A program made the translations under genes and the position numbers. From the NCBI GenBank assembly GCA_018902385.1, contig JABSSW010000003.1, positions 1,302,001-1,366,000 on the forward strand: 64,000 bases of DNA, given 5' to 3'. Shown here one piece after another: positions 1 to 55,205 of this stretch; position 1 is the first letter of the stretch; each line of letters opens with the position of its first letter. Under the pieces are notes generated by a model that had not been told where the DNA came from, made no database searches, and saw only the letters and a program-made list of their open reading frames with translations. Origin of the DNA: Physcia stellaris (lineage: Eukaryota > Ascomycota > Lecanoromycetes > Caliciales > Physciaceae).

Positions 1-179
1 CATGTTAATGTTGAATTTGTTGATGAATTTGTCGATGTAATTGTTTTGACAAAACGACGTTGTTTGTTGTTTTTTATCGCGTGTAATGCGAATATTGAAA
101 AATCATTCGATTTCGTCGATGTTTTTTATTTCGTATGTTTCGAAGAGTTTTTTTTCGAAAACGTCGACTTGTTTGAAAT
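1..179 (-). mobile_element. Ty1/Copia element, reverse-transcriptase 3' part (left segment of a split element)
   Basis: Read on the minus strand this stretch encodes a decayed piece of Copia reverse transcriptase just after the catalytic motif. Recognisable are the segment ending IDEIE, a TGA where Trp is expected, then FFNIRITRDKKQ and YIDKFINKFNI, which match the usual Copia order. It continues in sense from the Copia segment at 6926-9347 once the LTR element at 180-6920 is removed. The 5 bases at 175-179 (GAAAT) are repeated at 6921-6925 as the target duplication. The element runs off the left edge. Gly and Pro codons are missing, as in all the mutated DNA here. Confidence 0.75.
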
Positions 180-416
180 TGTTACGAGCATGTTTGACAA
201 ATAAATCTGACAAATAGATAATTGATATGATAAATGATTAAACAAATATGTTTGAATCGAATTATGTTTTAATTTTCTGACGAAATTAACGTGATTTGAA
301 ATTTGACGTTCGCACATTGTTTGCAATTTCATCATTTTGTATCTATTTGTTTTTGCAAATTTATTGTTTTCGTCTAGTTAATCAATAATACGTTTATTCA
401 AATACGATTCATGATA
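180..416 (+). repeat. 5' LTR of family 1 copy 1
   Basis: It begins TGTTACG and ends CATGATA, and is 237 bases long, the same length as the 3' LTR. I counted about 16 differences between the two. All are C/T or G/A; 14 are at CpT or CpC sites (or their complements) and 2 at CpA. The end was set where the two LTRs diverge and where the target duplication begins after the 3' copy. Confidence 0.9.
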
Positions 417-956
417 TTACAATAAATTTTCAATTTTATCGTTCGTCGTGATACGCGAACGTTCAAAAATAAAACTTCAAATCGATCAAATTTTTTTGAC
501 GAAACAAACGACGAAAAGTTTTGTTGATCAAACAAACGATCAAAAATTTTCTTGACGAAACACTTGACGAAAATCGTGAAATAACAAATCGAATTTTCAC
601 GCAAACGACGATATTTTCGACGATAAAAAAGAATTGATTCGATTAATTTTTTTTTTTTATCATTTTTCAATTTTTCATTTCTAGTTATGACTCGAAGTCA
701 TCACGAAACAATTTTTTTCGAATTTTCTATTTCGATGAAATAACGTTTCAAAACATTACGTTTCAATGTGAATCGTATGTTACAAAAAATCAATGACAAT
801 TTTTTCGACGAGAATTTCGTCGAACAATTCAAATGTCGTTGATTTGTTTCAACGATCGAATTCATAAAAATGAAAAATAACGAAATCATTCATTTTTTGA
901 ACATCGTCATCATCGATCAATTGAAATGATGAATCAATCAAAAAAATATCGATTTT

Positions 957-2100
957 TTGAAAAAATTTGATCGATTACGCATTGATCGTGACAATTATTT
1001 GAACGTTTTGATTCAATATCAGAATTTGTACAATATCGTCAACGTCGATCGTGACGAATTGATCAATACAAACGTTGAATTCGATGAAATTCGTAAAAAA
1101 ATGAATACATTGAAAATTAATTACGAACAAACGCGTGATCGATTTTTAATCAAACAACACGATTACATTTTTTTCAAAAAAATCATGACGTTTTGCTAGT
1201 CACGACTCGCGATCGTACACGAAATTTTGATGACGACAATGACGACAACGACGACGAAATCAACGTAATTAATTTTTTCAATAAAAGCAAACGACGTTCA
1301 AAAATTCATTCAGATTTTTTTAAATTCATCGAGAAAATGAAATTTATTTGACGTGTTTGAAAAACAAAAATGCATGATAAAATAACGATCAACGTCGATC
1401 ATTACGACACGAACATGATCGCAATCATTATTGTGATTGATTGAATTAAAAATGATGTCGATGATCACATACAATCGATACGTGATATCGACATGAATCA
1501 TTTCAAAAATTGACATATGATATTGAAATTTTTGAATTTTATTTTCGAAAAATCTGATTTCAAACGCAATATACGTATTCAATTTCGAACATTGATCATG
1601 AATATTCAAAACTTTCAATTTTTTTATTTCATTTTTTTTCGCTTTAGCAATTCAATCGATTATAACGAAATCATCAAAATCGAAAAATTGATGAACAAAA
1701 TTTTCTGAAATTTAAAAAAAACGATGAATGTATATTCACGTGAATTTATCACGTTTGATGAAATTCGAATCATTTTGCAACAAATATACAATCGACAATC
1801 GAATTTTCGAAAAAAAAAATCGCGACACGTCAACAACGTTTTGAATTGTTTTAATTCAAATCAATTTTTGTCGTTTCGATTTCGATGTTTTTTACGAAAT
1901 TTGTTATTTCGATTTTTTTCGTGAAATTTGTCGTTCATTATCATTTCAACGTTGAAATCAAAATTCGTAATTCGATAACAAACAAATTGATTGTTACGAA
2001 CAAATGTTTCATTTGCGATGAAATCGATCACGTATGAAAAAAATGTTCGAACGTTCACAAACATCAAAAACGTCATTGACACAAAATGCAAATGTTTTAC
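957..2100 (+). pseudogene. Decayed gag of family 1 copy 1 with CCHC zinc knuckle
   Basis: A helical, charged gag-like stretch begins near 957 (MKKFDRLRIDRDNYLNVLIQ) and is broken by stops and frameshifts. Near 2004-2045 it carries a retroviral-type zinc knuckle, CFICDEIDHV then TGA then KKC, with spacing C-x2-C-x4-H-x4-C. The two usual Gly positions are Asp, as expected if GGN codons became GAN. The same protein is present in both minus-strand copies, near 41597-41992 and about 48200-48580. Gag would package element RNA; this copy cannot. Confidence 0.7.
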
Positions 2101-2141
2101 ATGAACATGATTAACGAATCGAACGAATTTGATTCGAAAAA

Positions 2142-2540
2142 TTGATAATTCACATCAAAAACGCGATTGATGAATGTTTAAAATTTTTTTTTATTTATTA
2201 TGACGAATTGTTTGATTTCTTTGTCAAACGATTTTTAATCATCAATTGTACGTTGTCATTCAACGATAATAAACATAAATTAAAAATTTTAATAAACATT
2301 GATGCAATTGATTATGCTTTCATTGATAAAAAAATTGCGCAATTTGTATGCAACATGTTGAACATGAATTTCGTATTTTTATTAAAATCGAAACTCATTA
2401 TCGAATTCGACGATCGTTAAATTTTTTCAATAATTCATGTCATTTATTTCAAATTGACAATTGATTTGCATTTCGAATTGACAATTTTTTTGTTCATCAT
2501 CGATTTGAACAATCATTCGATAATTTTAAAAAAATCGTGA
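2142..2540 (+). pseudogene. Decayed aspartic protease region of family 1 copy 1
   Basis: The segment reading KILINIDAIDYAFIDKKIAQ (about 2281-2340) matches the active-site neighbourhood of Gypsy retropepsins, where a D-S/T-G triad is followed by a hydrophobic strand. The Gly of the triad is lost. A stop follows at 2418. The minus-strand copies at 40409-40807 and 46972-47370 stay open further with the same sequence, confirming the frame. Catalytic activity is not possible as read. Confidence 0.65.
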
Positions 2541-3046
2541 ATGAACAAACATGAAATTATTTTGAATATGATTTACGATAAATTGATTTTCAAATCGTTC
2601 AAATGTAATTATCATGACAATATATTCATCAAAACAATGCAAATTCGACATTTGAAAACTTTTGATTCAAATCGTCGATAAAACGTATTTAATTGACGTC
2701 GCGATATCTTTTTATCGAAAACAAATAACGCGAAACATATTGTTGCAATAAAATTTCGATATACGATTTTATTTCGTTCGCAATTTAGTTTTTCAACGTT
2801 TTATGTACAAAACGAATCAAACGTATTCGATTCAAAATGTTTCGATTGTTTTATTCATTCGAAAATCGATCAAAATAACGAGTCGTTCGTCGTTGAATCA
2901 AATCATTCAAAAATTGATATCACAACGATTACGAAAACGATTTTCGTCAAAAAAAAAATTTAAAAAAACAACGCAACAAACGTTGAAAAATCAAAAAACA
3001 ACAATTCGAAATTTTTTCATTTTCGAAACTGAATTCAGACGATTCG

Positions 3047-3900
3047 ATGAATATCGCGATAATTGATGCAATTTTTTTTTGTTTGTTCGTCGATTTCAAA
3101 AATCGAAAACAAAAAATGCAATGTTTTTTCATTACGATCAATCAAATCAATTTCGCATTCAAAACATTGCGAACAAATTTTGAATCGTTGAAAATTGTCG
3201 TCATGATTAAAAAAATTCTGAAACACGAACAAATCAAATCGATTTTTGAACGTATAATAAAAAAAATATCGAAATATTTCAAATATTTGTCAAAAATATT
3301 CGATTTTCAAAAAACAATTAAATTGTCGTCGTATCGAATTTACGATCACAAAATCGAATTTTTAAACGATAACAATACATTGTTTCGAAATCGAATATAT
3401 TTTTTGTTCGAATTCAAATTTCAAAAACTCAAAAAATATTTGAAAAATAATTTTCAAAAAAATTTCATCGTATTCAATCAAACAACATACGTTTCGTTCG
3501 TTTTATTTGCAATCAAATCAAATGATCAATTACGTTTGTGTGTAAATTATCGACGATTTAATCACATCACGAAACGCAATCGATATTTTATTTTTTTGAT
3601 CGAAAAAATTTTAATCAAAATGCAAAATTGCAAATATCTGATCAAACTGAATATTATATCGATTTTCAACAAGTTTCGAATGAATGAAAAAAATGAAAAA
3701 CTTATCACGTTTGTTATTTTCATGAAATCATACAAATATCGAATGTTATTTTTCGAATTGATCAACGAATTCGCGAATTGACAACATTACATGAACGATT
3801 TGCTATTCAATTTTTTGAACGATTTTTGTCAAATCTATTTAAATGATATTTTTATTTACAACAAATTCAAAAAAACACATCGTTCACGTTCGTAAAATAT
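3047..3900 (+). pseudogene. Decayed reverse transcriptase of family 1 copy 1
   Basis: The longest open piece (3047-3781) carries the fingers-palm order of Gypsy reverse transcriptase: LRLCVNYRRFNHITKRNRY near 3531-3590 and LIKLNIISIFNKFRMNE near 3640-3690. After a TGA at 3779 comes YLNDIFIYN near 3838-3862, which corresponds to the YxDD catalytic box with its first Asp changed to Asn (GAC/GAT to AAC/AAT). It lies between the protease and RNase H in the chromovirus order. The stop falls where Trp or another G-rich codon is expected. Confidence 0.85.
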
Positions 3901-4220
3901 TGAAAAAATTCAAAAAAGTCGAATTATAAATAAATATTGAAAAATGCGAATTTTTTAAAAAAGAAATAACATTTTTGAACGTCATATTATCGATAAATGA
4001 TTTTCGCATGAATTCGAAAAAAATAAAAATCATTGTCAATTGAAAACGTTTTACGAATTTGAAAAAAATACAAATTTTCGTGAATTTCGTCAATTTTTAC
4101 AAACGATTCATTCGTGATTTTTCAAAAAAAATTCGAATTTTCATTCGAATGATAAAAAAATTTGTGAATTTCGAATGAATTGAAAAAATCGAAAAAATTT
4201 TCAATTTTCTCAAGAAAACA

Positions 4221-4530
4221 ATGACGAAAATTTTCATATTACGACATTACGATCGAACAAAACAAATCATTTTGAAAATCGATTTTTTTGATTACGTCAA
4301 TGCAAAAATGTTATTTCAATATGACGACGAAAAAGTGTTGCATTTCGTTGCTTTTTACAATCGTAACATAATATCAATCGAATGCAAATACGAAATTTAT
4401 GATAAAAAATTTTTAGTCATCATTTGTTGTTTAAAACATTGACGTTTTGAATTCGAAAACATCGAAAAATCGATCAAAATTTTCATCGATTACAAGAAAT
4501 TGAAAATTTTCATGACGTCAAAAAAATTCA
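4221..4530 (+). pseudogene. Decayed RNase H of family 1 copy 1
   Basis: An open stretch contains KIDFFDYVNAKMLFQYDDEK, then HFVAFYNRNIISIECKYEIYDKKFLVI and CLKH, the usual order of Gypsy RNase H (first catalytic Asp, Y-E-I-x-D-K block). The stop at 4441-4443 is TGA, exactly where the family has a conserved Trp before R-x-E-L/F-E; sequence similar to the family resumes in frame after it. This single site illustrates TGG to TGA change at GpG while neighbouring CAA and CAT codons survive. Confidence 0.8.
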
Positions 4531-4959
4531 TTTTTCGTCAAACTCGTTGAATAGAAATTTTTTCGAAATTCAACATTATCATTCAGTTTCAATTCGAAAT
4601 TCAAAATGTTAAAACAAATGTTTTGATTCGTATGTTTGATTTTCGATTCAAAAACGAAATTGATAAACGACATCAATATCGAAAACAAATATTGTTCATT
4701 TCAAAACGATTCGAAATTCACGCGATAAAATTTGACGAATTTATTTACGAACGAATTTTGATTGTCAATAAAGTTGACGATAATTGCACGACATATCGTG
4801 AAATCATCGAACAAAATTTCACATCAATGAACGAAATCGATTTACGAAATTGCAATGAAAAAAACGATGTTTTATATCGAAATGATCGATTATGAATGTT
4901 TATCGACGTTTTTTTATTCGTTGATTTTTTCAAAAAAATTCATGAATTTTCGATTTCGA

Positions 4960-5990
4960 AACATTTAAATTTCAATCGTATGAAAAATTTTATACGTCGC
5001 GATTATTATTGATTTAACATGCGCAAATTCGTTCGTCGATACGTACGCAATTGTTATGAATGTCAACGTACGAAAATTTTTCGAAATCGAAAAAATGATT
5101 TATTCATTTTTTTGATCATTTTTTTGCAACGTTGAATCGACATATTTATGAATTTTATTATCGAATTGTTCGACGTTCACGATCACAACGTTATTTGCAC
5201 GATAATCGACAAATTTAATAAAAAACGTCATTACGTGTTTTGCATCGTCGACGATGAAAATACAAATGCGAAAATCACGATCAAAATATTTATCAATTAC
5301 GTGTTTCGTACGCATGAATTATTTTTTTTATAACGTCAAATTGAAAATTTCAATTCATATCGTTCGTTTGACAAGTTTTTTGCAAAATTTTCGACATCAA
5401 ATGTAAATTTTTTATCGTTTTTCATTCAGAAATCGATGAACAAATCGAAAAAATCAATCAAAATATCGAAAAACAATTGCGACAATATTGCAATTACATG
5501 CAAAACGATTAAAACGTTTGATTATTCATAATCGAATTTGCAAACAACAACACGATATTGACAACAACAAAATTATTATCATTTTTCATCAATAAAAGTT
5601 TTCATTTTCGCATGAATTTTTTATCAGATTTTATTTCGTATGTTACAACGAAAAAACGATTTTTGATCGTCAAAACAAAAAATATCATCGACACGATGCA
5701 AAATATTTTCAATTACGTACGAAATCATGCAAAAATGTTTTAAAAACGTATGACAATTCAAATCAACAAACATCGAAAAATCGTAAAATACGTCGAAAAA
5801 AATTTCGTTTTTTTCGATCGACGAAATATCAAAACGATCAAATCGTTTGACAAATTCGATGACAAAAAATTAAATTTTTACAAAATATTACAACGTATGA
5901 ACAATTTTTATCGATTCGAATTGTTTGAAATCATGCGTATTTACGATGTGTTTCATTGTTGATTTTTGCGCAAAAATTTTCGTGATTCAT
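4960..5990 (+). pseudogene. Decayed integrase of family 1 copy 1
   Basis: Near 5018-5090 the reading MRKFVRRYVRNCYECQRTK gives the C-x2-C end of the HHCC finger. The core follows at 5148-5333 (FIIELFDVHDHNVICTIIDK, then HYVFCIVDDEN and FINYVFRTHELFF), which matches the Tf1/Gypsy integrase core around the first catalytic Asp. Downstream, 5558-5743 and 5750-5962 hold the rest of the core and C-terminal part, separated by a TAA at 5740. Integrase would insert the cDNA; here it is broken by several stops. Confidence 0.8.
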
Positions 5991-6029
5991 TCGAAAATCA
6001 AATCAATGAATTTTTTGATTTCGTCATCG

Positions 6030-6220
6030 TCAACGAGAATTTCGAATGAAAAATGAACGATATTTTGAAATTTCGATATTATTACAATCGTTTTCAATAT
6101 CGTGTCAATTGATCGAATTGATTTCATGATCGAACGTGATATTATGTCGACAACGAAAAATTCGATAATATTCGCGATGTGATAAACGATTTTTATCGTA
6201 ATCATTTCACGACAACAAAT
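6030..6220 (+). pseudogene. Decayed chromodomain at the integrase C terminus, family 1 copy 1
   Basis: In the frame after the integrase the reading FE-stop-KMNDILKFRYYYNRFQYRVN-stop follows the chromodomain pattern in which acidic-aromatic residues precede D-I-L and a R-Y-x-x-R-x-x-x-Y-x-V-x-W strand. It continues YYVDNEKFDNIRDVINDFYRNH, the C-terminal helix. The stops are TGA at expected Trp positions of the aromatic cage. Chromodomain integrases of this class steer insertion to methylated-histone chromatin, which fits nested copies in one block. Confidence 0.7.
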
Positions 6221-6667
6221 TCAAAATCGTTCAAAACGTTGATTTCAATATTTCAAATCGTTGTCAACGAATCAAATTTTTCAACGAATCGTCGTCGTTT
6301 TCGAAAAAAAATCGTCATGTTGACATTAATCGAAACTATTTTCAATTAACATTTGAAATTACGAATTCAATGTTCATTCATTCGTTTTTGATTTCACGAT
6401 TTTTATTCAGCAATTCAGTTTTTATTATCATTTCGATGTTATTTACAGTCAGAATTTACATCGCATAAAAAATTGAATCGTGTCAAAAACATTTTCAAAA
6501 ATTGTCGTCAAATTTTATCGAACGTTGAAATGACAATAAAACATTAAAAAATGAAAAATGATGATCGTGAAATTTTTAAATTTTGCAATCATACGAATTA
6601 ATCAACAAAATTTTCAACAAGATTTTCAAATTTTGAAACAACAACGAATCGTCGAAACGACGTTCGC

Positions 6668-6680
6668 GAAAAAGAAAAAA
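6668..6680 (+). other. Polypurine tract of family 1 copy 1
   Basis: A 13-base run of A and G (GAAAAAGAAAAAA) lies 3 bases before the 3' LTR start at 6684, the expected place for the plus-strand primer. The same tract adjoins the LTR in the minus-strand copies. Confidence 0.7.
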
Positions 6681-6683
6681 TAA

Positions 6684-6920
6684 TGTTACGAACATGTTTG
6701 ACAAATAAATTTGACAAATAAATAATTGATATGATAAATGATTAAACAAATATGTTTGAATCGAATTATGCTTTAATTTCTTGACGAAATTAGCGTGATT
6801 TGAAATTTGACGTTCGCACATTGTTTGCAATTTCATTATTTTGTATTTATTTGCTTTTGCAAACTTATTGTTTTCGTTTAACTAATCAATAATACGTTTA
6901 TTCAAGCACGATTCATGATA
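6684..6920 (+). repeat. 3' LTR of family 1 copy 1
   Basis: It is 237 bases, TGTTACG to CATGATA, followed at 6921-6925 by the GAAAT target duplication. In one place the 5' LTR reads TC and the 3' LTR reads CT at two adjacent bases, consistent with an ancestral CC in which each copy lost a different C. Confidence 0.9.
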
Positions 6921-6925
6921 GAAAT

Positions 6926-9347
6926 ATTGAAAATAATACATGATTGCTATATCGTTCACGAAGAAAAATAGAATCATGTAATCGTTGATGAATAAACATT
7001 CGATATCGAACATTTGTTTTAAATTTAAATTGTTGAAAATGATCGATAAATAACGATATCATAACGTTGAAAATTGTTTCAATTCATAAAATGTTTTCAA
7101 TAAAAAAAATAACACATTGTTTGTTTTTTTTCAATCGTCAAACGATTTGCAATAAATGAATTCGTCGATATCGTTATTTGCGAATGCGTTGATTGCGTTA
7201 TATTAACGAATGTTCAAATCGAAAATTGTAATTATGATCATTAATGTTCGAAAAATTTTAATAATTAATGTAATTGCGTAAACATTTTGTTCGATTTGTT
7301 GAAAATTTTTTCGAACACACAATCGAATTTTGTGTTTAATCAAATATTTTTCATTGTCGAATTTGTATTTGAATATTCATGTAATAAATATAAAAATTTT
7401 TTTTGCGTTTTTAACATGATGTCATGAAATTTTTTTTCAAATTTGTTTTGATTGTAATGTTTTGATTTTCACGTCAATGATTCGTAAAAAATCGACGATT
7501 TCAAAATGTTTGAACATTTGATAATAAAAACGTGATTCGACGAAAAAATCGTCACGATGCGATTTTTTTTTTTTCGTCATTGAAGTCATGAATGTTTCAT
7601 AAAATGAACGCATTTTTTTTGCTGACGCATTTTTTAAAACGATGAAATGATTGAAATTTCGAAGTGAATTTGATTTGCGAATACGAATGAATTTTTCAAA
7701 TTGAATATTGATTTCGTCAATCGTTGTTTTCGTTCAATGTTTCGATTTTTTTTTTTCAACGACGATGCAAACGAAAATAATTTTTTTATTGTTTTTGCAA
7801 CGACAAATGACGAAAAATTTTTTGTAACGACAAATGACGAAAAATACGAAAAATTAAACGTATTTGACGTGTTTTCACTTTTTGACGAAAATGAAACAAA
7901 TGAAAATAAATATTTTGATTCAAAATCGTTTTCAATCGTTTGTTTGTGAAATTTCTTTGCATCGCGATCGATAATAAATTTTGTAAATGTTAATTTTTAT
8001 ACATTTTCGTCGTTGTTTGATTCGATGTTCATTATTTTCGTGAAATCGTTTTGCGATATGTCAAACGTATCGTTAATCAAAAAAAATTCGTTGACGAATT
8101 GAATTAAATTTATTTCATTAAAACGATAACGTGAATTTTCGTTGAATGTGACGTCACGTGTACGTATAATTTTTCGTTGATTAAAAATTTAAATTAAAAA
8201 GATGTTGATATTGTCATAATTTACAAAAAAGTCGATGTGTGTTTTGATTTTCATTTTTTTCTTTTTCGAAATATTTTTATTCAAAAAATATGTTTTTGTT
8301 TCATATTGTACGATGTGAACAAAATTCGATTTTTTGTCGATGATCATTTCGAACGATGTTTTTCATTCATGTTTTTTAAAAAATGTACGATTTATTATGT
8401 AATCAACGATTTCATTGATTCATGATTATAAATAAACAAATAAATTTGTTTCGAATTTCATTGTTCGTGATTTGATCAACAATATGTCATTTAGTCGTTC
8501 GTTGTGATCGTTTTGTGTTAAAATATCAACGATCGAAAATTCAAATGTAATGTTTTTGAATGCGCAATAATTATTTCATTGAATGTTTAACGCACGTTCG
8601 TCGTCAAAACGTACAAATACGATTTTGTCGTTGTATTTGATTTCGATTGTATGAATGATTCGAATAAACATTTTCGTGATTTGTTTTTTGTTTTCGTGCG
8701 TGTATATCATGTGAAAATTTGTTTCGAAACATGTCACGTGCGATATTCATTTGTGTTTGTTCAAAATCGTTGTCATATCGATGAAATCGTATGTAATACG
8801 ATAAAACGATTTGTTCGAAATTTTTGATTTTACAGAAAATTTGAATACGATTCTATGTGCTTTGAAAAATGCACATTTTTCGCATTTGTTAATCAAGAAC
8901 ATTTTATTTTTGTTAATAAATTTCATTTTTTCAGCTACTTTTTGTAAATGCTGTATGACGTCATTATTCGCATGAACGAAAAATTGATGTCATTTTAAAA
9001 TAAATTTTTGTCGCACAATGATTGCAAAAATGTTCATTTTTTCAAATTTATTATTTTCGAAAACGTAATGTGCATTTATTTTTGACACGTGAACGATCGA
9101 TTTATCGTTTTTATGAAAATGATCGTGTGTCGTATCGAAATGTAAATTTTTGTTTGCAAAAATATTATTCGCAACGATGTTGATCATGAAATCGAATACA
9201 TAAACAACATTTAAAAATTTTATTGATTTTTTTTTTGTGAATGTATCGACGTCGATACGCATTCGATCATATGTCAAAATAAAAAATGATTTCATGTCGA
9301 ACATAATTTTCGATTCGTTTGTGCAATTTCGTTTTTTTTTTTGAAAA
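6926..9347 (-). mobile_element. Ty1/Copia element, middle segment: pre-integrase, integrase and reverse transcriptase (decayed)
   Basis: On the minus strand, 9304-8990 is an open stretch with the Copia segment before integrase (LNVVYVFDFMINIVAN, then HFDTTHDHFHKNDKSIV and HYVFEN). Lower coordinates give integrase and linker text (FVHIVQYETKTYFLNKNI, RTRDVTFNENSRYRFNEINL near 8160-8080) and then reverse transcriptase (KHKIRLCVRKNFQQIEQNVY, IYCKSFDD, FFFVNDI near 6965-6945, where the V-D-D box reads V-N-D). The segment stops at 6926 and resumes at 179, across the family 1 insertion. Its other end at 9347 resumes at 17049, across family 2. Pro, Gly and Trp codons are gone. Confidence 0.8.
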
Positions 9348-9548
9348 TGTTAGAAGTTTGCAAACTAACTTGTCGACTATGAGACGAAAATCTGTCTGAC
9401 GATTGTCAATGACGAGATTTGAAATGAAAACGTGTCTGTCGTTGAAAAACAAATCATTTGTCACATAATTTTACAATATATATTTCGAAACTTTTTCGAA
9501 AAATTAACAATCAAATTTTTTACATTTTTTCACACATTGTTCTTGACA
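9348..9548 (+). repeat. 5' LTR of family 2
   Basis: It starts TGTTAGAAG and ends CTTGACA (TG...CA) and is 201 bases. I counted 12 differences from the 3' LTR, all C/T or G/A: 11 at CpT (or ApG) and 1 at TpG/CpA, with mutations on both copies (4 in this one, 8 in the other). Confidence 0.93.
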
Positions 9549-10105
9549 ATTTGATAACATCATTTTATCACATCAACGTTGTTTGCATCATTGATTGCAA
9601 CAACATCATCAAAATTCTGTCAATTTTGCATTGCATTGTACGCAAATCTGTCAATTTCTTGAATTTTACTTTTTGTCGTTTTCGCTTTCTTGATGTCGTT
9701 AATGCTGTAAATTTTACGTCAGTTCTATTCATTTGATTGTGAAAAATTTTTATTTCACTTTATTTCATTTTTCGTTTTATTATCAGTTTGCGAAAGACTT
9801 TTTTCTAATTTATTGTACGAATAATTCGAAAAACTTTTTCAGCTAATTAAATCAACAAAAAAACTTTCACAATAAATTATCTATAACTCATTCTGACGTC
9901 AGTTTTCAACGAAATCATTCAGTTTGCGTGATTCATTTACGACTTTTTGCAAATCAATCACGTTTTTTGCTCGTTATTCGACGATACTGATCGACGTACG
10001 ATGAAAATTTTGATCGTTAAAATTTTCAAATTTCTCAAAACTCGAATCAGCGATTTTGCTTATTTATTTCAGTGAATCAACGACGTCGTTTCGTTTCAGA
10101 ACGTT

Positions 10106-12229
10106 TTGATTCAATTTCGTTTTGATATCGAACGTTTTCGCAACTCGAACGTTTTTCGAAACTTTTTGATCAAATTTTCAGCTGTAATCAATTCAAAATT
10201 CAGTGACTCGATTTCATTTTCGATTTCTCGTTTATTCAAACTAGAAACGTCAATTTCGTCAATCTCATTAATATCGTTTGATGTTTTTTCTTCAAAAAGA
10301 TTTCGACGCAATAACGTGTCGAAAATTCAAATTTTCAATTTCACATTTTCGTTTGTAGCATTCAATTATTCATTTATTATCACGTCAAACACGTCGATCG
10401 ATTCTGCATTTAATTTCAATTTTGTCAACATTCGTGATATCTCAATTGAAAAAATTATTTACACACAATTCATTGATTTTGTCATGTTTGATCAAAAACA
10501 AAATCAAAATCAAAATCAATTTGATTCGATTATTCAAACAATCATTACAACAACGATCATTGCAATCGTTATTCAAACATTTGTCGATTTTACAGCACAA
10601 TTTCAACGTTTTCAGCAAAATAACATCGAAAATAACAACGAACGTGATGATCGACGTTTTTCTGATTTTGATTTTGATTTTTCGAATGAAATTGCGACTG
10701 ATGCTAATGACGAAAAATCAGTTTTGAAAAATTCAGAAAATATCGACTTCTTTGATTTTCGTCGTGAAAATGACAAAAACAAAAATGTCATTGTCAACGT
10801 TGATCGACATATTTATTACAAAAATGTATTTGTCTTTACTGACAGATTTAAAAATTTGAAAAAAAATTCGTTTGATCACAAAGTGCGTGAATTTATTGCC
10901 GAATGTTTACGCGATGATATTTTCACTTGACATTCATTGAAACTAAATGAAACTGAAAAAAATATGTTTCGTGATGTATCAATGAATCAATGATGTCGTG
11001 ATTTGATTCGTCGATTCAAAAAACGTGATTCACAAATTCTCAAAAATTTGCAAACTGAAAAATACATTATGTAAAATGTTCGCAATAATAAAACGTTTAG
11101 AATTTACGTGCAAAACATCATGCGTCATTTTAAAATCGTCGAATTCAATTCTATTTACAATCAATTAATTATGACGTGAAATAATCTGAATTTTAATTTC
11201 AAAATGCAAATATTTGAATCAATCACGATTATCATTTTTATTTCGTTTTTCGATTCATTTGACGTCAAAATCAATATCTGACAAAAAATAATTGCTTATA
11301 AATTTATTCAACATGTCAATTTTAATTCTGATCAAATCGATAAACAACGTCAAATCAATAAACAGAATCGTGAACGACAAAACGACTTTCAACAACAATT
11401 TGACGCTGACAATTTTCAATTTTTTTATTTTTCGTATGAATATTGATCATCATCAAATTACAATTCATATCAATATCAAAATTCGACGTTTCAAAATAAT
11501 GCTTATCAGAAATATCAGAAATTTCAATATCAATTTTCAAGCGCATTTCAAAAAACATTTGTCGTTTTTGTCTTGTCAATTGACAAACAGTTTTTGCAAT
11601 TGATTTTCGAAAACGCGTCAAATTTCAAGTTCAAAAATCAATCACAACGTCGATTAGCAAACGACACAAAACAAAATAATCGAAACGAATTTGACAATCG
11701 TGACGACAAAACTAAAACTTTTGTTGTCGATCAAAATAACAACGAAAAAAAAAAATTTGTGAAAAACTTTCACAATTCATTTGCGAAAAACTTTCTTAAT
11801 GAAAAGCATGAAAATTACTATATTGAAGACGAAAATTTGAATTATTACAATTCGAATCAGAAAAATAAAATTTTCGTCAATTTCATTGCGTCGATAATAG
11901 TGATCAAGTCGTCGTTATTTCACTGTCGTCGATATAGAAAGATTTTCACATTTAATAACGAATTACATCGTCATTTTCGTGATGATTGTAATTTGATTTT
12001 TTCAGAAAAATCGAAATTCTTTAGCGACGTCGAAACATATTCGATCAAAAATTTCAATTTCAACTTGTTTACAATCGATGTTACAAAAAAAATCAACGAG
12101 TTTAATCAATTGAACACAATCACGTCTGTTGAATTTACGAATTCATTTATTTCGTTTGAGTTCATCATTATTCGTTTTAACGTCGACTCGTCAACAGATA
12201 TTGACATCGAATACGAATTTCGTGATTGA
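10106..12229 (+). pseudogene. Decayed gag-like region of family 2 with a C2H2-type finger
   Basis: Two open pieces, 10106-10930 (Ser/Phe/Asp-rich, 274 residues) and 11573-12229 (218 residues), cover the region before the protease, separated by stops. The second piece carries FHCRRYRKIFTFNNELHRHF followed by RDDC near 11918-11987. This resembles a C2H2 finger with the C-x2-C-x4-F-x2-N-N-x-L-H-x-H plan, with the second Cys replaced by Tyr (TGT to TAT). The minus-strand relative has the same finger at 62416-62631. A C2H2-type finger instead of a CCHC knuckle in this position is unusual for Gypsy elements. What the finger binds cannot be told. Confidence 0.55.
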
Positions 12230-12442
12230 AATTACGTCAAAATCAAAATTTCATTTGTCGTAATCGTCGTGTCAAAAAACGTGTGTTTGAACATCGATGT
12301 TAACGTTTCATTTATAAATCGAAACTTTTTCAAAACACAAATATTCAATATTTTCATTCGTATCATGATTTCGTCATTTCAAATTCGTGATTTAGACATT
12401 AATCGACATGAAAATTGAAAATATGTCATATGTGATATTCAT

Positions 12443-12985
12443 ATGTTTGACACAAAAAATGATCAAAAAATCACGTCGTTGTTCAAACGTGAAATTTATT
12501 TCGTTGACAACTTGAAAATCAATATGTTTTTAAACAATGACATCATTGAATTCGAAAATTTCGCTATTGACATGATCAAAAAACATGCAATAATTGATAA
12601 TATCGACATAATCATATCGTTGAAAATACGTTTTTTCAAATTGACGATTCAACGATTTGTTCATTTCAAAAAAATTACAATCATTTCGTCACATGTCGAA
12701 ATGATCGTCGTCGTTCATCATGTTGAATTGTCGATTACAAAAAATTTTTTGTTTGAATCGAATGACAATTTCAATTTCATTTTGTATGCACATTTCGTTG
12801 ACGCGTTTATTAAATCTATTATTGTACGCAACGATAAAGAATTTTCAATTATGATTTCTAGAAATTTTCGACTAAACAAAATATTTGAAATTGATTTTTT
12901 CAGTGATTTTCATATCGATATCGACGACGAAAATGTCAAATATTTCGTCGTCAAAAAATCAAAATTCATTCACAAAAATGATTGA
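12443..12985 (+). pseudogene. Decayed protease-region polyprotein segment of family 2
   Basis: An open stretch of 180 residues contains YFVDNLKINMFLNNDIIEFE, which matches the retropepsin region of fungal Gypsy elements just after the active-site strand (the usual L-I-G-N-D box has lost Gly). It continues to the linker preceding reverse transcriptase. The same text occurs on the minus strand at about 61616-61897. Function would be polyprotein processing; the copy has lost key Gly residues. Confidence 0.5.
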
Positions 12986-13559
12986 TTCAAAAAATTCATT
13001 TTCGTTTGCGTCGTGATTTACGTCGTCGTTGTTACAATCGATAATAATTTTTCGATTACGTTTGTTATTTCATCGTCGTTAATCATTCTGTCACAAACAT
13101 CAATATCGTTTGTAATCATTCTGTCACAAATTTCGATGTCAATTGCTGAATTGCGAAAGATTTTCACAATCAGAATCGATGATAACGATTTCGAAAAGTT
13201 TTTTACAAACGTTTTTATTTCGTTGATCGAAATCGTTTTGTTTAACGACGTTATCGTTTACAATTTCGACGAACTAAACTCATTCGTCAAAATTGTTGAG
13301 AAATTTTCGACGTTCTGACAGAATATCGATTTTGCTAAAATGTCGAAAGAGAATTGAATGAAAATATCATTGAAAAATGACTGAAAAAAACGTGTATCAG
13401 AAAAAACAAAAATGTATTTTCTGAATACAAAGAACAAAAAATTGATTGACAAAATTTTCGACGATTTGTATCGCATTGATCGAATGTTTTGAATTAATCA
13501 ATCAACGTCATTTTTCTATTTTTGCTTTTGCGTTTGAAAAAACGTTGACGACGAGAAAA

Positions 13560-14920
13560 AAAATCGTGTAATTATAAACATCAGAAATCTCAATGTCATA
13601 ACACAATTTGACGCATATTCGTTATCATTGCAAACAAATATCATAATCGCAATGCGAAATTGCGATTACATATCAGTCATTGACTGTTCGATTTTTTTTT
13701 ATCAATGACGAATTCATTCAAGTGATCGACACAAATTTACTGTTGTCAATCACAAAAATCAAAAAAATTTCAACGTGATTGTCATGAATTACAAAAATTC
13801 ATCGACGTACGTGCAACGTCAAATTGATCGATTGTTTCGCGAATATCGTCACTTTGCCAGAATTTATGTGAACGATATAATGATATTTTCTCGTACAAAA
13901 ATCGAACACGAAATTCATTTGCGCAAGATATTTTCAGTGCTAAACAAAAACAACATTTCGATCAAATTTATCAAGATTTTTCTGAATTATTTATCAGTTT
14001 CATTTCTCGATCAGAAAATTGATTCATTCGATCTAGTCACGTTCGAAAAAAAACTCAAAACAATTGTCAAATTTCGATTTTTTCGCACTTTTCGACAATT
14101 CGAAACGTATCTTGATTTGACTGACTGATTACGTGATTACATTGCTCATTATGTTGACATTTTCAAATCATTACAGAACAGAAAAACGAAGTTTTTGCGT
14201 AACGAACTTATTGCAAAAAATGTTAAACGTGTCTATTTTTCGAAAACACGCGTACAACATTTTACAACAAAAAAATTGATTTTATTCGATGTTTTGCAAA
14301 TCGTTTTGACAAAATTTTTTTATTTAATTCATTCGAATTTCAAACGTCAATTATTCATTGATTTGAATGCTAACAAAAAGTTCGAATTCGATGTCATGTT
14401 ATATTATGTCAAGAAAATTTTTCTCGAATCAAACAAATACTTTTTTCGTCATGTTATAGAGTCGATATTTTTTCTTAATCGATTATTTATCGATGTCGAA
14501 ACAAAATATTGATCGACTGAATTGAAAATAACAAACATTGTGTGAATACTCAAAAAAACAAAACATATTGTTGAAGTTTCGTCAAGCAAAACAATCGTTT
14601 ATATTGATCATGAATTTGCATTCGACATTGTTAATCAAATCACGATGACAACAATTTCAATCGACAAATTCAATTTACGTCTTGTTCGTGTTTCAGATTA
14701 CATTCAACGTTTCAATTTCGATATTCGACATAAATCAAACAAGCAACACATTGTTTTTGATGTTTTGTCACGTTTAATCAGCGATAATATCAACGCGTCA
14801 ATGATCAGAAATTCTGATGAAAATGAACTTGATGTTTTGTTCACAATTTCATTAATCGAAATGAAAAAAGATTTTCGCAATCGAATACTCGATGATTACA
14901 AAATTGATTTGAATTGACAA
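13560..14920 (+). pseudogene. Decayed reverse transcriptase and RNase H of family 2
   Basis: The piece 13775-14128 reads VMNYKNSSTYVQRQIDRLF, then FARIYVNDIMIFSRTKIEHEIHLRKIF, the palm with the YxDD box changed to Y-V-N-D, and the thumb. RNase H follows at 14195-14512, where FSYLIH-type and IDLNANKKFEFDVMLYYVKK match the first catalytic-Asp region. The connection segment at 14645-14917 contains FNLRLVRVSDYIQRFNFDIR and KQHIVFDVLSRL, a hallmark of the RNase H/integrase border. Stops between pieces are mostly TGA. Confidence 0.8.
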
Positions 14921-14935
14921 AAAATCAATCAAATA

Positions 14936-16126
14936 TTGAACGTTGACGACGAGAACGTCGCAAAGTTATTTTTTTATAAAAAAGAAAATGATTTGATTTT
15001 TCGTTCGAATGATTTTATCATTGATGATTATGTTTACGAGTCTCGTCGATTTTGCATTTTTCATCTCGTTGTATCAAACATTTTGCGATTAGTTCATGAC
15101 GACGAACATGCGAATTATGTCAAATGTTTCGAAAAAATGTTCGCTTCATATTATATTCGCGATCTGTCTCGCTATTTGCGTGATTATTTGAAACATTGTT
15201 CGAAATGTCAAATGTATCAAATCAGAAAACACGCATCGTATGATTCGTTACAGTTCATATTAATTTCGTCGATTTCATTTCATACAATCATCATTGATTT
15301 CATTTTGATTTTATTTGTTTTTCGTGACGAATTGAATATCACGATGTTTGTCATTTGCAAATTCACGAAGCGATTCACACTTATTGTCGACAAAAAGATT
15401 TGATTTGTCGCTGAATGAAAAATCGCGTTAATCGACAAACTAAATGTTGTTGATTGAAATATATCGAAAATCATAATTTCGAATCGAAATCGCAAATTTC
15501 TGTCTGATATGTGAACAGCAATTTTCAAGCAATTCGAAATTCGTTTGCTTTATTCAATTGCATATCATTTTCAAATTGACGATCAATTCGAACGAACTAA
15601 TCAAATGATTGAGATTGCTTTTCGATTTTATTTGATTACAATGAAAAATTCAATTGAGTGATTTAAAATACTGATCAGATTGCAACGTCATTTCAACAAT
15701 TTTCATTCTGTCATTATTCACAAAACATTCAATGAAACGTTTTACGAATTCATTTCGTTGCAATCTTTGAACATGTTTCGTCAACTCGTTACATTTGATT
15801 TCATCGACGATTTGAAAGAATTTTTCGCAATTGACAATCGAAAATCATTCGCAAAAACTTTTTTCAATGCAATTATTCGTGTTCGTTTTGAAATGACTGA
15901 CGTCATTGCATTCGCTCAAATGATCAACAAATATTATTATGATCGTAAACATCAATTCTTGTTCATGAAAATTGACGACTATGCATTGATTAAATTGCAT
16001 CATGATTACAACATATCGACAATTGAAATTTTCGATAAAAAGTTGAATCAACAATATATCGATTTTTTCAAAATTTTTGAAAAGATTGACAATCTGACAT
16101 ATCGATTGAAATTTCCGAATCATTGA
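14936..16126 (+). pseudogene. Decayed integrase of family 2
   Basis: At 14936-15403 the HHCC finger is clear: LVHDDEHANYVKCFEKM and then LKHCSKCQMYQI. The start of the catalytic core follows (FHTIIIDFILILFV, FVICKFTKRFTLI). After stops, 15680-16126 carries the core C-terminal half and the linker (HKTFNETFYEFISLQSLNMF, AFAQMINKYYYDRKHQFLFM), which ends in one of the few surviving Pro codons of the block (16115). The minus-strand relative has the same linker at 58440-58712. Confidence 0.8.
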
Positions 16127-16199
16127 CGTATACATTTCGTTCTATTCATAATTCAATTGAAATTTGTCTTTTCATCAATGAACGATTTTTTCAATCGTT

Positions 16200-16440
16200 C
16201 ACGTTCAAATCAGTCAAATTCTGTTTTCGTTGAAAAAGACACGAATCGAATCAAGTCATGAAAAATTGAAAAATTTATCAACAAACGTCAAATCAAACGT
16301 CGTGACGATGAATATCTTGTCAAATGAAAAAATTGAAAATCACAATACGATGAATGACGAAATTTATCAGAATTCGACGACGTTCAAAATCTTGTACAAA
16401 ATTACGAAAACGCTTTACGTTTTACGATTTTTTTGTCAAA
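16200..16440 (+). pseudogene. Decayed chromodomain of family 2
   Basis: In the frame following the integrase the reading SVFVEKDTNRIKS-stop-KIEKFINKRQIKRRDDEYLVK-stop fits a chromodomain: an aromatic-acidic entry, I-x-x-x-x-x-x-R-R-x-D-E-Y-L-V-x-W, and a helix (NLSEFDDVQNLVQNYENA). Stops are TGA at Trp positions. Both Gypsy families in this block therefore ended in chromodomains, in line with insertion into heterochromatin. Confidence 0.65.
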
Positions 16441-16847
16441 TCGTTTGCAAAAGTTTTTCGTCATTTCGTTAATCAAGATTGTCATTTCGTCAAAGTTTTT
16501 CGTCGTCATTTCACTGATTAAAAACTTTTCACAACATCGACGTCGACGTTTGTCAGTCAATCATCAACAAATCAACGATTCGCAATTGTCATTTCACGTA
16601 AATCGAACACGACATTTTCGTTAATTTCTGACATCGAATCACTTGCTCTGACTCGAAAGTCAATTACAATCGAATTGATCACATTTTCAGTCACGTCATC
16701 AGTCGTTGCAATTGATATTTTGATACGACGATTTCATCGACTTCAATAACTAAAAAAGAAAAACTAAAAATATCAACACGAATATTGTTTGACATGATTA
16801 GAAAACATGACATCGAGACGATGTCGTTTATTTTAATTGAAACAAAT

Positions 16848-17048
16848 TGTTAAAAGTTTGCAAATTAACTTGTCGACTATGAAACGAAAATCTGTTTGAC
16901 GATTGTCAATGACGAAATTTGAAATGAAAACGTGTCTGTCGTTAAAAAACAAATCATTTGTCACATAACTTTACAATATATATTTCGAAATTTTTTCGAA
17001 AAATTAGCAATCAAGTTTTTTACATTCTTTCACACATTGTTTTTGACA
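16848..17048 (+). repeat. 3' LTR of family 2
   Basis: It is 201 bases, matching 9348-9548 from TGTTAAAAG to TTTGACA, followed directly by the GAAAA target duplication at 17049-17053. The 12 differences from its partner are all transitions. Confidence 0.93.
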
Positions 17049-18420
17049 GAAAACGTTGTTTCATTGTGTTGTTGATCACGTAAATGTCGAAATCGTGATT
17101 CATAATTCACGACGAACGAAAAAAATAATTTGACGAAAACGAATCGTTTGTAAACGATTCTATAACATTGACGTGAATGACGACGAAAAATTTTATTTCG
17201 ATTTTTTTGTTTTTGTTATTATCGTTTTTTTTTGACGTTTTTCGTCAATTCGTTTGATGCTTTGTTTTATTTGTTTTTTTTTTGAATTTTTTTTCGCTTT
17301 TTTTATTTTAATCACGATTTTTAGTTTCAATTTGAAATCATTTGAACGTATGTTTTCGTTGAAATAGAAACAATCGTCGTAGAAATGTTTTTTTTCGCAA
17401 ATGCAAAAATTTCGAAACTGATTTTGATTTCGAAATGACGAAATGTCAGAAAAATTTCGATAATTTGTGTGTTCGTATTCGTCAATTGCGAATGTCGAAT
17501 TAAATATCGTTTTTTTTTCTTTTCGAATTTTCTTTATGCGCATGTGATGACGAAAAATCTCGATGAAAATGAAAAACGTTGTTTCGTGATTCGTTACGAT
17601 GTTTAATTGAAATAATTGTATTTCAACGAAAATAAATGCGATTTTGTCGATTGCGTATAAAAAGTCACGATACGCTCGTTTGTTATCGATGATTTCAACA
17701 ATTTTCGTTTGTTTAACGAAAGTCAACATTTTCAAATAATCGTTTAGTCAAACATCAATGTTTTGATGATTGAATGAATTTTTGATCATGCGATTGTATT
17801 TTTGTTTCAATTTCAAATTTCTAGTCGAATCGATAAATGCAAAACGTGTTTTGAAAACGCGAAAAACGATTCATGAATGAATTTCAACGATTTGAATAAA
17901 ATTGACATTTGTAATCGTTGTTGTATCGTAAATGTGATCGATTATTTTTCTCATGAAATTTTTTTGCTTTTTTCAATTTTGAAATTTTTTTTTGTATTTC
18001 GATGTCGTTATTTTGTATCGAACATGTTTTTTGCTGAAATTCGCATTTTGTTGTGTGTCAAAATTGAATTCTAAAAATTCAATTTTCTTTATTGATTTAA
18101 TATCGTTGAATGAATCGATGAAATTTCAAATCGAATATTTTGTGATTTTGACTCGTACGATCGAAAATCACGCGTCTCAATTTTTGAAAAAATTCAATTT
18201 AAGTTTTCGTTTCGTATTCGTCATCGTGTTGAACGAACGAATAAATAAAAAAATTTTTTTGATTGTTGTTGATTGTAAAAAAATGTAAACACAAAAATGT
18301 TTTCGCGATGTTTTGATTTCTCGTATTAATTTGTCGAAACAATCGAATGTTGAAAATATTGATAATTAAATAAATCACGTGATGAATGCAACAATTAAAC
18401 GTAATTCGAATTCATAACTG
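17049..18420 (-). mobile_element. Ty1/Copia element, gag and start of protease (right segment of the split element)
   Basis: The minus-strand open stretch 17735-17193 encodes a Copia gag. It contains YLKMLTFVKQTKI-like text, then DNKRAYRDFLYAIDK, and a knuckle CICEKKHFYDDC (C-x-C-x3-H-x4-C) near 17396. Upstream on the minus strand an in-frame TGA interrupts gag-like text that continues to about 17,900 and perhaps 18,400. Downstream a protease-like stretch (MNHDFDIYVINNTMKQRF) ends at 17049 exactly where family 2 was inserted and continues at 9347. The Copia LTR and 5' end could not be located. Confidence 0.75.
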
Positions 18421-18449
18421 TAAAATTGCATGAAATCGTAAATCATTGT

Positions 18450-19194
18450 TTGCATGTTGTTTTATCGAATGCTAATTTACATGATTTTTAACATTTAATG
18501 TCATTGAAATGCGCACTAATTACTAAGTTCTTGACGATCTCTGATTGATCATCTAGTTTTACAAAAGATTTTCATACTGACAGAACTATGTAAAAAGAAA
18601 ATCGATTTATATTCACTAAATTACTGTTGAACTTTTGAACTGCTCAAAAAAAGAAAATATTCAGTTGTAAAGAAACTCTGAAAAAATGAATACGAAACTC
18701 GAAACAGAGTGAAATTTACTTCGTACGTCGTCTTTGATCTTGAGTGCTGCTTCTCAGAAGCAATTTTTCTGCGAACAGTTTCTCTCTCAAAGCTTTTTAC
18801 AAGATATCTGATCGTGTTTCGTCTGATGTATGACTAGTTGCGTCAGCTCTTCTGCGTTCGCATTTCGATTGTTAATATACATGCTAAAAGATTAATCAAT
18901 GCATTTCTTGTTCACTGACTCTCGTCGAATGATTTTCGTCGAATGATCAACACACACTGCGCAAAAGCGAAAAGAAAACTTGACGTCAAAAGTACAATAA
19001 ATAGAATATCGATTTGATTTCGATCATGTCACGATTTATAAATTTCGAATTTCATTGCAAATTCTCTTTTCTATTTCAGTCTATACGAATCTTATTGCGT
19101 GATAAAGAACTCGAACACGCACTGAACTGTGTCAAAATCACGTGTCTATGAATCAGTGCACGACTAACAGCTCAAACACGAGAAAAGAAACGAT
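18450..19194. other. Mutated shoulder without recognisable genes
   Basis: From 18481 to 19223 I found no CC and no GG, although CT and AG are frequent and base composition is less extreme than to the left. No coding frame or repeat match is visible. It looks like single-copy or unrelated DNA hit by partial, spreading C-to-T mutation next to the Copia element. Confidence 0.6.
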
Positions 19195-19386
19195 GTGATC
19201 GTCGATGAAAATGAAAATTCAAAGCCGAAATCGACGACGAGATGTGTGCTTTGCGAAACGCGTTTTCGTTCGATTTCTTATCATCATATCAACTCTGCAG
19301 CGGCGACGAGATACCATTTAGAGCATTTGAGAAATATGCAATTGCACATCGGACGCATCGATGCGGCGACTAGGTATGCCCAATGA
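19195..19386 (+). pseudogene. Possible zinc-finger fragment at the island border
   Basis: A 63-residue open stretch begins without a clear promoter and contains CVLCETRF and, 20 or so residues later, RYHLEHL, loosely like a C2H2 or BED finger (C-x2-C ... H-x2-H). It lies on the border between the mutated shoulder and normal DNA. It could be the end of a broken transposase or a chance ORF; I do not recognise a family. Confidence 0.2.
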
Positions 19387-19604
19387 CTAGTAAGCATAGT
19401 ACATACACCAGACGAAAGGCGGTTAGACACCCTGTAGGGGGCTTTGGAAAGGAGACTGCCCGCAGAAAAATTGCCCCAGAAGATTGTCTGAGAGCAAGAC
19501 GATCTGTTGAAATCCTATTGAAATTACATCAGTACAGAAAGATGAATGCTTAGCATAAGGGCCCGGAGTCGATATCAAAGCCTACTAGCCCTTCAGGATA
19601 GATA

Positions 19605-20106
19605 TCGCATTAATTGGCCAATAAGACCCCTCCGGGTTATAAGACACTCTGAGTTATAAAACACGGTTCCAAATGAGGTTTTCGAACGGTAGGGAGGGTT
19701 TTGTTTATAAGATATGTTTTTGGAACCTGCCTGAACGCTGCAATTAAGATACCTGATTTTTGATTTGAAATTGTAGAACATAGAAGTACCATTCTATTTT
19801 CATTGAGATTGTATTCAATTTCGATTTATTTACTGATCAATTTGATACTTCATGTCTCGAATCTTTAATTATGATCAGTCAATAATGAGGTACCGAGTAA
19901 TAAGAAACAGTCAAAACATCAAAAATCGTTTCATGATTGCGGGCGATAAACGATTCCATTGACTAAAAATTGCTTAGTCACTCTACTAACTGATCTATTA
20001 AGCACTTTGGCTTGTAAAACACCTTCGATTATAAAACACCGTTCTAATCGAGGCCAAAACATACCTCTGGGTTATAACTTACTGTTTTATTGGTCAATTA
20101 ATACGG
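19605..20106. mobile_element. MITE-like Tc1/mariner-type element with TA target site
   Basis: A 502-base non-coding element. Its ends are inverted: the left end reads YCGYATTAATTGRCCAATAA, and the right end is the reverse complement of the same pattern over about 22 bases with only C/T and G/A differences. TA flanks both ends (19603-19604 and 20107-20108), the target duplication of Tc1/mariner elements. Inside, a unit with GTTATAARACAC motifs near 19637-19685 is repeated in direct orientation near 20008-20056. There is no transposase ORF, so it would need one in trans. It is not depleted in CC/GG, so the mutation process has not hit it strongly. Confidence 0.6.
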
Positions 20107-20697
20107 TATGATGCGATAGGTGTACGGGTATGCTGTCAGCAGTGCAGGATCTGCAGAAAAATCAAAGGCCTGATGCCAAAAGATCAATTACATAAGCAAA
20201 CTCTGATTGGCCCGCTTGATATTTCGATTTTTCCCTGTAAGCGATCTCAATCATTCCCTCCATCGGTCTCGAATACCACCACATCCATTTTGCAGAGTCT
20301 CGCGCAGAGATATGCTTCGAGCTACGAGTTCTTGTCTATTTGAACCTTTCGCGCCTACGGACCGCTTCTCCTTGCGTAGTCTCGCCCTGAAACATGCGCT
20401 TCAAGCGATAGGTCGAACCGTCGCACTCTTATTGAGGGATTGACCGTCTTTTAGGATCCTTCAGACTAGCAACAATCATATCTAGAGGCGACCCGCCATG
20501 GAAGTGGGAAGCCAGTCGCTACCTGCCACCGTGAATCAACGGCAGAGTGTCCTTACATCTCTCAAACTATGGAACATTCTAGCTATCTCCGAGTCTACAG
20601 TGGCCACGCACTTGTTTGAATGCCAAAGACCTCATCAATCGTAGGCGCCACCAATCTACGGGAACAAAGAATTGTAGGCCCGCTTTGCCACACCGCG
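20107..20697. other. Intergenic region upstream of the secreted-protein gene
   Basis: Normal base composition, no repeat recognised. A 78-codon open frame at 20207-20443 has no family resemblance and no supporting context, so it is not called as a gene. The promoter of the gene starting at 20698 should lie here. Confidence 0.4.
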
Positions 20698-31600: not shown

Positions 31601-31749
31601 ATATTATTGATTTTTGATGTTGCAAATCATGTTTTATCGCAAAATCGATTTCATCATCAAAATCAATTTTGTGATTTTGTTTGACGATCATTGAAAATTC
31701 AAAATCGTTGTTTTCAAAATCGATTGTCATTATGTCACGACATGTCGAT

Positions 31750-32690: not shown

Positions 32691-32741
32691 ATAACATTCG
32701 ATATCGTCAAGAATTTTGTATGTAAAACATTTGTGTTTTAA

Positions 32742-33150: not shown

Positions 33151-33199
33151 GATCAAATGAAATTATTTATCATCGAAATTTCATTTTTTCATTTATTTA

Positions 33200-49303: not shown

Positions 49304-49357
49304 AAGCGAAACGTTCGACGATGTAATCTTGAAAGTTTCAAAACTATTGCGATAACG

Positions 49358-50470: not shown

Positions 50471-50476
50471 TAAATT

Positions 50477-52035: not shown

Positions 52036-52061
52036 GACGCGTTGATTGATAAAAGATCATT

Positions 52062-55200: not shown

Positions 55201-55205
55201 TCGTC

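Follow-up and report, generated by a model that had tools for sequence, protein, structure and literature searches.

RIP-like C-to-T mutation directed at CpC and CpT in transposon blocks of the lichen fungus Physcia stellaris

Described systems and the Physcia stellaris pattern

In repeat-induced point mutation (RIP) the order in which dinucleotides are targeted differs between fungi: a passage of one source gives CpA > CpT > CpG > CpC for Neurospora crassa and, with one sign missing from the passage, CpA similar to CpG, then CpT, then CpC for Trichoderma reesei (PMC5496416). Here we analyse a stretch of 64,000 nt, called the window, from Physcia stellaris, a lichen-forming ascomycete, along which AT-rich blocks (25-27% G+C) alternate with gene islands. 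The blocks are probably transposons that a RIP-type genome defence of P. stellaris has mutated with the preference CpC > CpT >> CpA > CpG; in this order the dinucleotide least favoured by Neurospora comes first and the one it favours most comes third, and transposon genes lose their Gly, Pro and Trp codons. As in N. crassa, C-to-T changes affect both repeat strands and occur in strand patches, and the genome encodes putative relatives of RID and DIM-2; apart from the order itself, P. stellaris differs in that stops arise mostly from Trp codons and the RIP product and substrate indices are silent. RIP in T. reesei likewise follows a dinucleotide order of its own, but CpC is the least favoured target there and the most favoured here.

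C-to-T mutation with a CpT bias has been described in Magnaporthe oryzae, Botrytis cinerea and Sclerotinia and tentatively tied to a RID motif; the same source lists ten genomes with CpA, CpT or CpG signatures and a CpG signature in Microbotryum and, weakly, in rusts (PMC4352252). P. stellaris shares CpT as a major target with the first group, in which, unlike here, CpA is co-targeted, and the term CpC is absent from the text of that source (PMC4352252). With Microbotryum and the rusts it shares context-limited C-to-T mutation in transposons, but no context is affected less than CpG in P. stellaris. CpT as a target is not new, since RIPCAL already gave more CpT than CpA changes in Neurospora Tad1 (PMC2621366) and another study states CpT to be dominant in its control fungi (PMC7882544). 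In Monilinia, CpC-to-TpT double mutations accompany classical CpA RIP (PMC8959702). Full-text literature searches, which covered titles, abstract openings and passages and had most subscription papers outside their reach, returned no paper with CpC as the leading target, and the term 'repeat-induced' is absent from the text of the P. stellaris genome paper (PMC7513301).

Among lichen fungi, RIP in Cladonia rangiformis leaves sequence derived from transposable elements mostly at 10-20% G+C with a local peak at about 16%, according to an excerpt of the source (PMC12542154). The two species have in common the lichen habit, sharp borders between genes and transposable elements, and RID and DIM-2; they differ in that a conversion confined to CpY (Y, pyrimidine) bottoms out near 24% G+C in the forward model given below. 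As Cladonia lies below this floor, it presumably also loses CpR (R, purine), and the CpY rule would then not be common to all lichen fungi. Repeats of Endocarpon pusillum, also a lichen fungus, show classical index values of 1.47 and 0.70 in the passage concerned (PMC3897900). A survey published in 2025 and covering 1,239 fungal genomes concludes that CpA preference is common to RIP-like defences; its 130 strong-signature species all belong to four classes other than Lecanoromycetes, and Lecanoromycetes is named among the classes with k-mers enriched in non-coding DNA (S13 Fig legend; PMC12543289). P. stellaris belongs to Lecanoromycetes and shows intense RIP-like mutation whose preference is almost the reverse of this; none of the windows tested passes RIPper thresholds, and an index built on CpY may be needed when lichen fungi are surveyed for RIP. 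It thereby becomes testable what determines which dinucleotide a RID-class enzyme attacks; for this class, a review records that no catalysis was detected in vitro (PMC13297926).

Context and direction of cytosine loss

In block I (1-18450) CC occurs three times and GG not at all, against 693 CC+GG expected from base composition, and CT (230) and AG (179) together reach 409 against 1836 expected. CA (1249), TG (1168), CG (1113), TC (1421) and GA (1299) stay common. The rule is the same in block II (31500-51950), with 0 CC+GG against 644 expected and 134 CT+AG against 1918, and in block III (53940-64000), with 0 against 305 and 81 against 935. A sequence-only reading of the window had reported three CC and no GG where hundreds were predicted, a strong depletion of CT/AG, the persistence of CA/TG, CG and TC, and the same grammar in the other two blocks; its counts are exact for CC and GG and its other statements agree with ours, and base composition is ruled out as the cause of the CC/GG loss. 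Between the blocks the observed/expected ratio of CC is normal (0.87 in 18451-31499, depleted flanks included, and 0.96 in 51951-53939). The proportion C/(C+T) in the blocks is 0.47-0.56 when A follows and 0.48-0.53 when G follows (0.60 and 0.43, respectively, in gene island 1), and drops to 0-0.001 before C and 0.02-0.06 before T. Sorted by the 5' base, it is alike after A, G and T and close to zero after C alone, where the missing CC accounts for it. It is the 3' base that governs the loss of C, and the 5' base counts only through the missing CC.

The direction of change is given by comparison with unmutated relatives. When the genome was searched for the integrase zinc-binding domain, six of 150 matches had no stop in the domain. 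Two of these, L025 and L026 (G000:C5 and C12; 53-54% G+C), are unmutated relatives of the long terminal repeat (LTR) retrotransposon family of the window (68-70% identity to its copies over 3.1 kb); a third, L028, is half-mutated at 37% G+C. With L025 as reference, C-to-T changes affect 97.8% of CC, 97.7% of CT, 15.5% of CA and 5.7% of CG sites in copy 36041-42762 (part 36373-39512), 98.4%, 98.2%, 17.9% and 5.0% in copy 42539-49303 (part 42931-46075), and 96.6%, 90.4%, 14.8% and 7.9% in copy 179-6920 (part 3422-6575). In L028 the corresponding values are 75.6%, 44.7%, 3.1% and 2.2%. Reverse transitions in these comparisons amount to 1.2-2.4% and T-to-A changes in the window copies to 0.6-1.4%. 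Results with L026 as reference agree, CG reaching up to 9.6% and reverse transitions 0.9-2.9%. The control comparison of the unmutated L025 and L026 shows no strong context effect (CC 11/445, CT 16/397, CA 10/412, CG 10/417), and a second family, compared from L037 to L042, shows 93.9% for CC, 77.2% for CT, 5.4% for CA and 5.5% for CG over a reverse-transition background of 2.05%. C-to-T (G-to-A) changes lie on both repeat strands, with few transversions, as in RIP. The target order is CpC > CpT >> CpA > CpG; the lead of CpA over CpG is confined to the window copies, where CpG is also changed (5-8% with the L025 reference) above the reverse-transition background.

These tables bear out the cytosine-targeting process with a 3'-pyrimidine preference that the sequence-only reading had proposed, as directional C-to-T change at CpC and CpT, and refine it in that CpC is hit before CpT (76% vs 45% in L028). 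Its statement that CpA is spared needs correcting: CpA is a minor target against an unmutated reference, but it is not untouched, being a weak third target with 15-18% changed in the saturated copies. It had also named CpA as the main target in repeat alignments as an outcome that would contradict it. When the window copies are compared with each other, CpA does lead the C/T differences (506, against 286 for CpT and 180 for CpG, counted at sites with the same 3' base and pooled over overlapping, non-independent pairs), because CpY is already T in every copy. Copy-to-copy comparison lacking an unmutated reference is misleading as to target context.

In a forward model every CpY was converted to TpY, with nothing else changed, in 174 kb of gene-rich DNA serving as a proxy for the ancestor. 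G+C falls from 49.2% to 24.3%, and the dinucleotide frequencies come near those of the blocks (GC, for example,.0129 predicted and.0100-.0140 observed), which have somewhat more CG and TA and somewhat less CA/TG and AA/TT than the model. Fitted rates for the blocks are 0.99-1.0 for CC, 0.75-0.95 for CT, 0-0.13 for CA and about 0 for CG. The polarised tables carry more weight than this model, since the proxy is not the true ancestor.

The same rule is seen in codons. In the three window copies compared with L025, TGG became TGA in 27/27 cases, and Gly was kept at 0/87 and Pro at 0/96 positions; 2/57 Gln codons and 0/45 CGA codons became stops, and one stop came from another codon. The Ty3/gypsy frame 10076-16123 (2016 codons) holds 24 stops, namely 23 TGA, 1 TAA and 0 TAG; TGG and GGN are both at 0, and Gln and Arg (CGN) persist with 87 and 98 codons. 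Genome-wide, 144/150 scored matches to the integrase zinc-binding domain (150 of 658 first-look candidates were scored, with stops counted by eye) contain a stop and 6/150 do not, with 147 TGA, 2 TAA and 1 TAG. For RVT_2 (150 of 165 candidates scored), 133/137 matches contain a stop and four none, with 401 TGA, 101 TAA and 3 TAG, and for DDE_1 the figures, again counted by eye, are 9/10 matches, 44 TGA and 3 TAA. The predominance of TGA among stops in these domains genome-wide is what a loss of TGG predicts.

Runs of mutation confined to one strand within a single copy are typical of RIP, including that of Neurospora. In L028, the single copy tested, the patch statistic is 5.29 in 200-nt bins, against a maximum of 2.93 in 2000 permutations, and between alignment positions 750 and 1600, a range picked after seeing the data, 10/106 CpY sites are changed on the top strand and 88/114 on the bottom strand. 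Such patchiness favours an active process that works strand by strand over a decay that is slow and symmetrical.

The breadth of the pattern was sampled in 20 further 10-kb stretches, three of them on methyltransferase loci, in 1-kb half-overlapping windows. CpY/CpR is below 0.5 in all 34 sampled windows under 33% G+C, which come from three stretches (L009, L018 and L019), and in 3/346 of the others. In the sampled domain matches and windows repeats are hit and genes spared, as expected for RIP, with the unmutated L025, L026, L037, L040 and L041 and the depleted flanks of gene island 1 as exceptions. The usual CpA preference of RIP is lacking: CpA change stands at 3% in L028, TpA/ApT is 0.39-0.47 and the substrate index 1.20-1.35 in blocks I-III, and RIPper thresholds, taken as quoted in PMC10998396, call RIP in 0/99 AT-rich windows of this stretch and 0/34 in the sampled stretches.

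A probable RIP-type defence and its alternatives

In its mutation pattern the process behaves like RIP. Transposon copies are converted C-to-T on both strands, in strand-specific patches in the one half-mutated copy, and nearly all CpY in the copies of the window is converted; there, aligned Gly (GGN), Pro (CCN) and Trp (TGG to TGA) codons have disappeared and most Gln and CGA Arg codons persist. The genes between the blocks are not affected, but 0.8 and 1.5 kb beside gene island 1 are stripped of CC. The mutator may be a C5-cytosine methyltransferase of the RID/Masc1 class, either the canonical RID-type enzyme or a divergent second RID-like paralogue, whose specificity for the 3' neighbour would have changed from A to pyrimidine; it would be active in the sexual cycle, as in Neurospora, and a DIM-2-like enzyme might assist in the flanks.

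Candidate genes are present for the RID- and DIM-2-type methyltransferases, which the sequence-only reading had named among the enzymes to look for. A PF00145 genome search gave four matches, two of which are parts of one gene. L003, on contig C5, encodes a RID/Masc1-class methyltransferase (P0001, 932 aa in full length, motifs PPCQFFSDAHT and VTLEQT), which motifs and lichen-fungus relatives mark as a probable canonical RID-type enzyme; a PDB search with the RID-type exon returned generic methyltransferases only. L001 (G000:C6:790057-794028; motif ITMEET) encodes a divergent second RID-like methyltransferase, which groups with P0125, P0126 and the Heterodermia protein P0128 (Shimodaira-Hasegawa-like approximate likelihood ratio test support of 100), apart from the canonical RID-type protein; its relatives are 60-94% identical and include one Heterodermia record. 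L002 combines a DNA methylase domain with DUF7893, by which we read it as putatively DIM-2-like.

Several observations weigh against a single RIP-type process of this kind. CC is nearly gone in L009, L018 and L019 and the loss of CT is often partial there, and nine windows at 25-30% G+C retain 35 CT+AG per kb, against 134 in gene-rich windows. TAA makes up 101/505 of the stops in RVT_2 matches, a minority that fits a weak CpA activity and equally double changes of TGG (2/13 in L042), and a weaker CpA activity may indeed coexist, given the CpA share changed in saturated copies. The methylase match of L001 contains two in-frame TGA, which we read as probable introns because the Heterodermia relative P0128 is complete. 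Unmutated multi-copy elements persist (L025 and L026 are 95.5% alike, L040 and L041, at G000:C8 and C42, 96.8%), in a culture that was grown from ascospores (PMC7513301), so the process must be less than fully efficient. Finally, the two flanks beside gene island 1 are more CC-selective than the repeats, so that one enzyme with one preference fails to explain them.

The flanks lend themselves to an explanation by two coupled activities, compatible with the RIP-type defence preferred here, of which one would be CC-selective and spread into flanks (DIM-2-like or second RID-like) and the other, RID, would act on CpC and CpT in repeats. The left flank (18480-19290) has 1 CC+GG where composition predicts 48, and 84 CT+AG where it predicts 92; the right flank (30000-31490) has 2 against 71 and 142 against 159. 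Per kb this leaves 1.2-1.3 CC+GG, yet 104 (left) and 95 (right) CT+AG, where about 27 (2.5-97.5% range 20-35, 105 proxy windows) would be expected at the CC:CT rate ratio of L028. Fitted rates in the flanks are 0.97-0.98 for CC, 0.25-0.32 for CT, 0.06-0.11 for CA and 0-0.12 for CG. For the right flank, the one whose copy number was examined, 30001-31480 is single-copy except for about 375 nt that have a single 81% relative and for the outer edge, where short matches (33-42 nt) are common to twelve places. The genome does hold two RID-like genes and one DIM-2-like gene; set against this, the flank ancestor is approximated by gene-rich DNA and the data are two flanks of one island. The loss of CC with CT kept is perhaps a second mode, and we put forward the coupled activities tentatively, as the less probable account. 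A two-mode RIP in which CpC alone is attacked in single-copy repeat flanks and CpC plus CpT on repeats, by different methyltransferases, one of them the second RID-like paralogue, is a similarly tentative proposal. An open frame at 29689-30207 extends about 200 nt into the depleted right flank.

Slow decay, in which CpY methylation is followed by passive deamination over long times with no active mutator, would account for changes that are C-to-T only and lie in transposons, in a genome with a DIM-2-like enzyme. It is improbable, since 97-98% of CpC is changed in window copies whose reverse transitions and T-to-A changes stay at the low levels given above, and since L028 carries strand-specific patches.

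Such patches together with C-to-T change would also suit a cytidine deaminase of the AID/APOBEC type. The preference of APOBEC-type enzymes is set by the 5' base, but in the blocks and in the polarised tables the 3' base decides, so that this origin is very unlikely; a PF08210 (APOBEC_N) genome search found no match, but neither did it in its control genomes, and this negative carries no weight. An artefact of sequencing or assembly, for example nanopore miscalls at methylated CpY, deserves as little credence: the assembly is nanopore-based but was polished twice with Illumina reads (PMC7513301), a single family is represented by mutated, half-mutated and unmutated copies, with patches specific to one strand, and CC is also missing from the right flank, which is mostly single-copy so that short reads should map. 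Over-saturated classical CpA-type RIP, which the lead of CpA among differences between window copies might recommend, can be dismissed almost outright, as the half-mutated L028 has 3% of CpA changed against 76% of CpC, the window copies retain 82-85% of their CpA sites and most stops are TGA.

Two further candidates were rejected. Ultraviolet dipyrimidine mutation changes C to T at TpC; TpC is not depleted in the blocks, and in L028 5/119 TCA and 3/134 TCG are changed, in line with the argument from retained TpC in the sequence-only reading. Methylation induced premeiotically (MIP), that is methylation without mutation, is ruled out because the sequence itself is changed, as the polarised C-to-T tables record.

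Layout of the window

The AT-rich blocks, their elements and the gene islands are listed in Table 1. The Ty3/gypsy element has RVT_1, Integrase_H2C2 and sub-cutoff SH3_Tf2-1 matches, all in one frame. Of the AT-rich open stretches, 46 reach at least 100 aa. Twenty AT-rich open stretches were scanned with Pfam: two gave transposon domains above cut-off, two a sub-cutoff SH3_Tf2-1 match, and the others chance-level names or no match. The terminal repeat common to both tandem LTR copies (36041-49303) suggests recombination between terminal repeats.

Table 1. Features of the 64,000-nt window
Feature	Coordinates	Strand	Remarks
Block I, AT-rich, CpY-depleted transposon block	1..18480		27% G+C in 1-18450
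Hypermutated LTR retrotransposon	179..6920		same family as both block II copies, opposite orientation; terminal direct repeats ~180-416 and 6684-6920
Hypermutated Ty3/gypsy element	9344..17048	+	205-nt terminal repeats
Left flank of gene island 1	18480..19290		CC-depleted
Gene island 1	19300..29990		no CpY depletion; helicase gene and short frames with no assignment
Right flank of gene island 1	30000..31490		last CC/GG of the island starts at 29984
Block II, AT-rich	31500..52130		CC+GG = 0 in 31500-51950
Hypermutated LTR retrotransposon copy	36041..42762		block II
Second LTR retrotransposon copy, tandem	42539..49303		terminal repeat 42539-42762 common to both tandem copies
Gene island 2	52139..53920	-	no CpY depletion; gene with Rubis-subs-bind and zf-MYND domains
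Block III, AT-rich	53940..64000		CC+GG = 0

Block II also contains a 202-nt tandem duplication at 32742-33145, of which a third copy lies 17 kb away at 50032-50233. The large gene of island 1 (21746-28195), situated between two hypermutated blocks, has zf-CCCH, AAA_11/AAA_12 helicase and ZnF_RZ matches, and we take it to be similar to helicases of the NFX1/ZNFX1 type.

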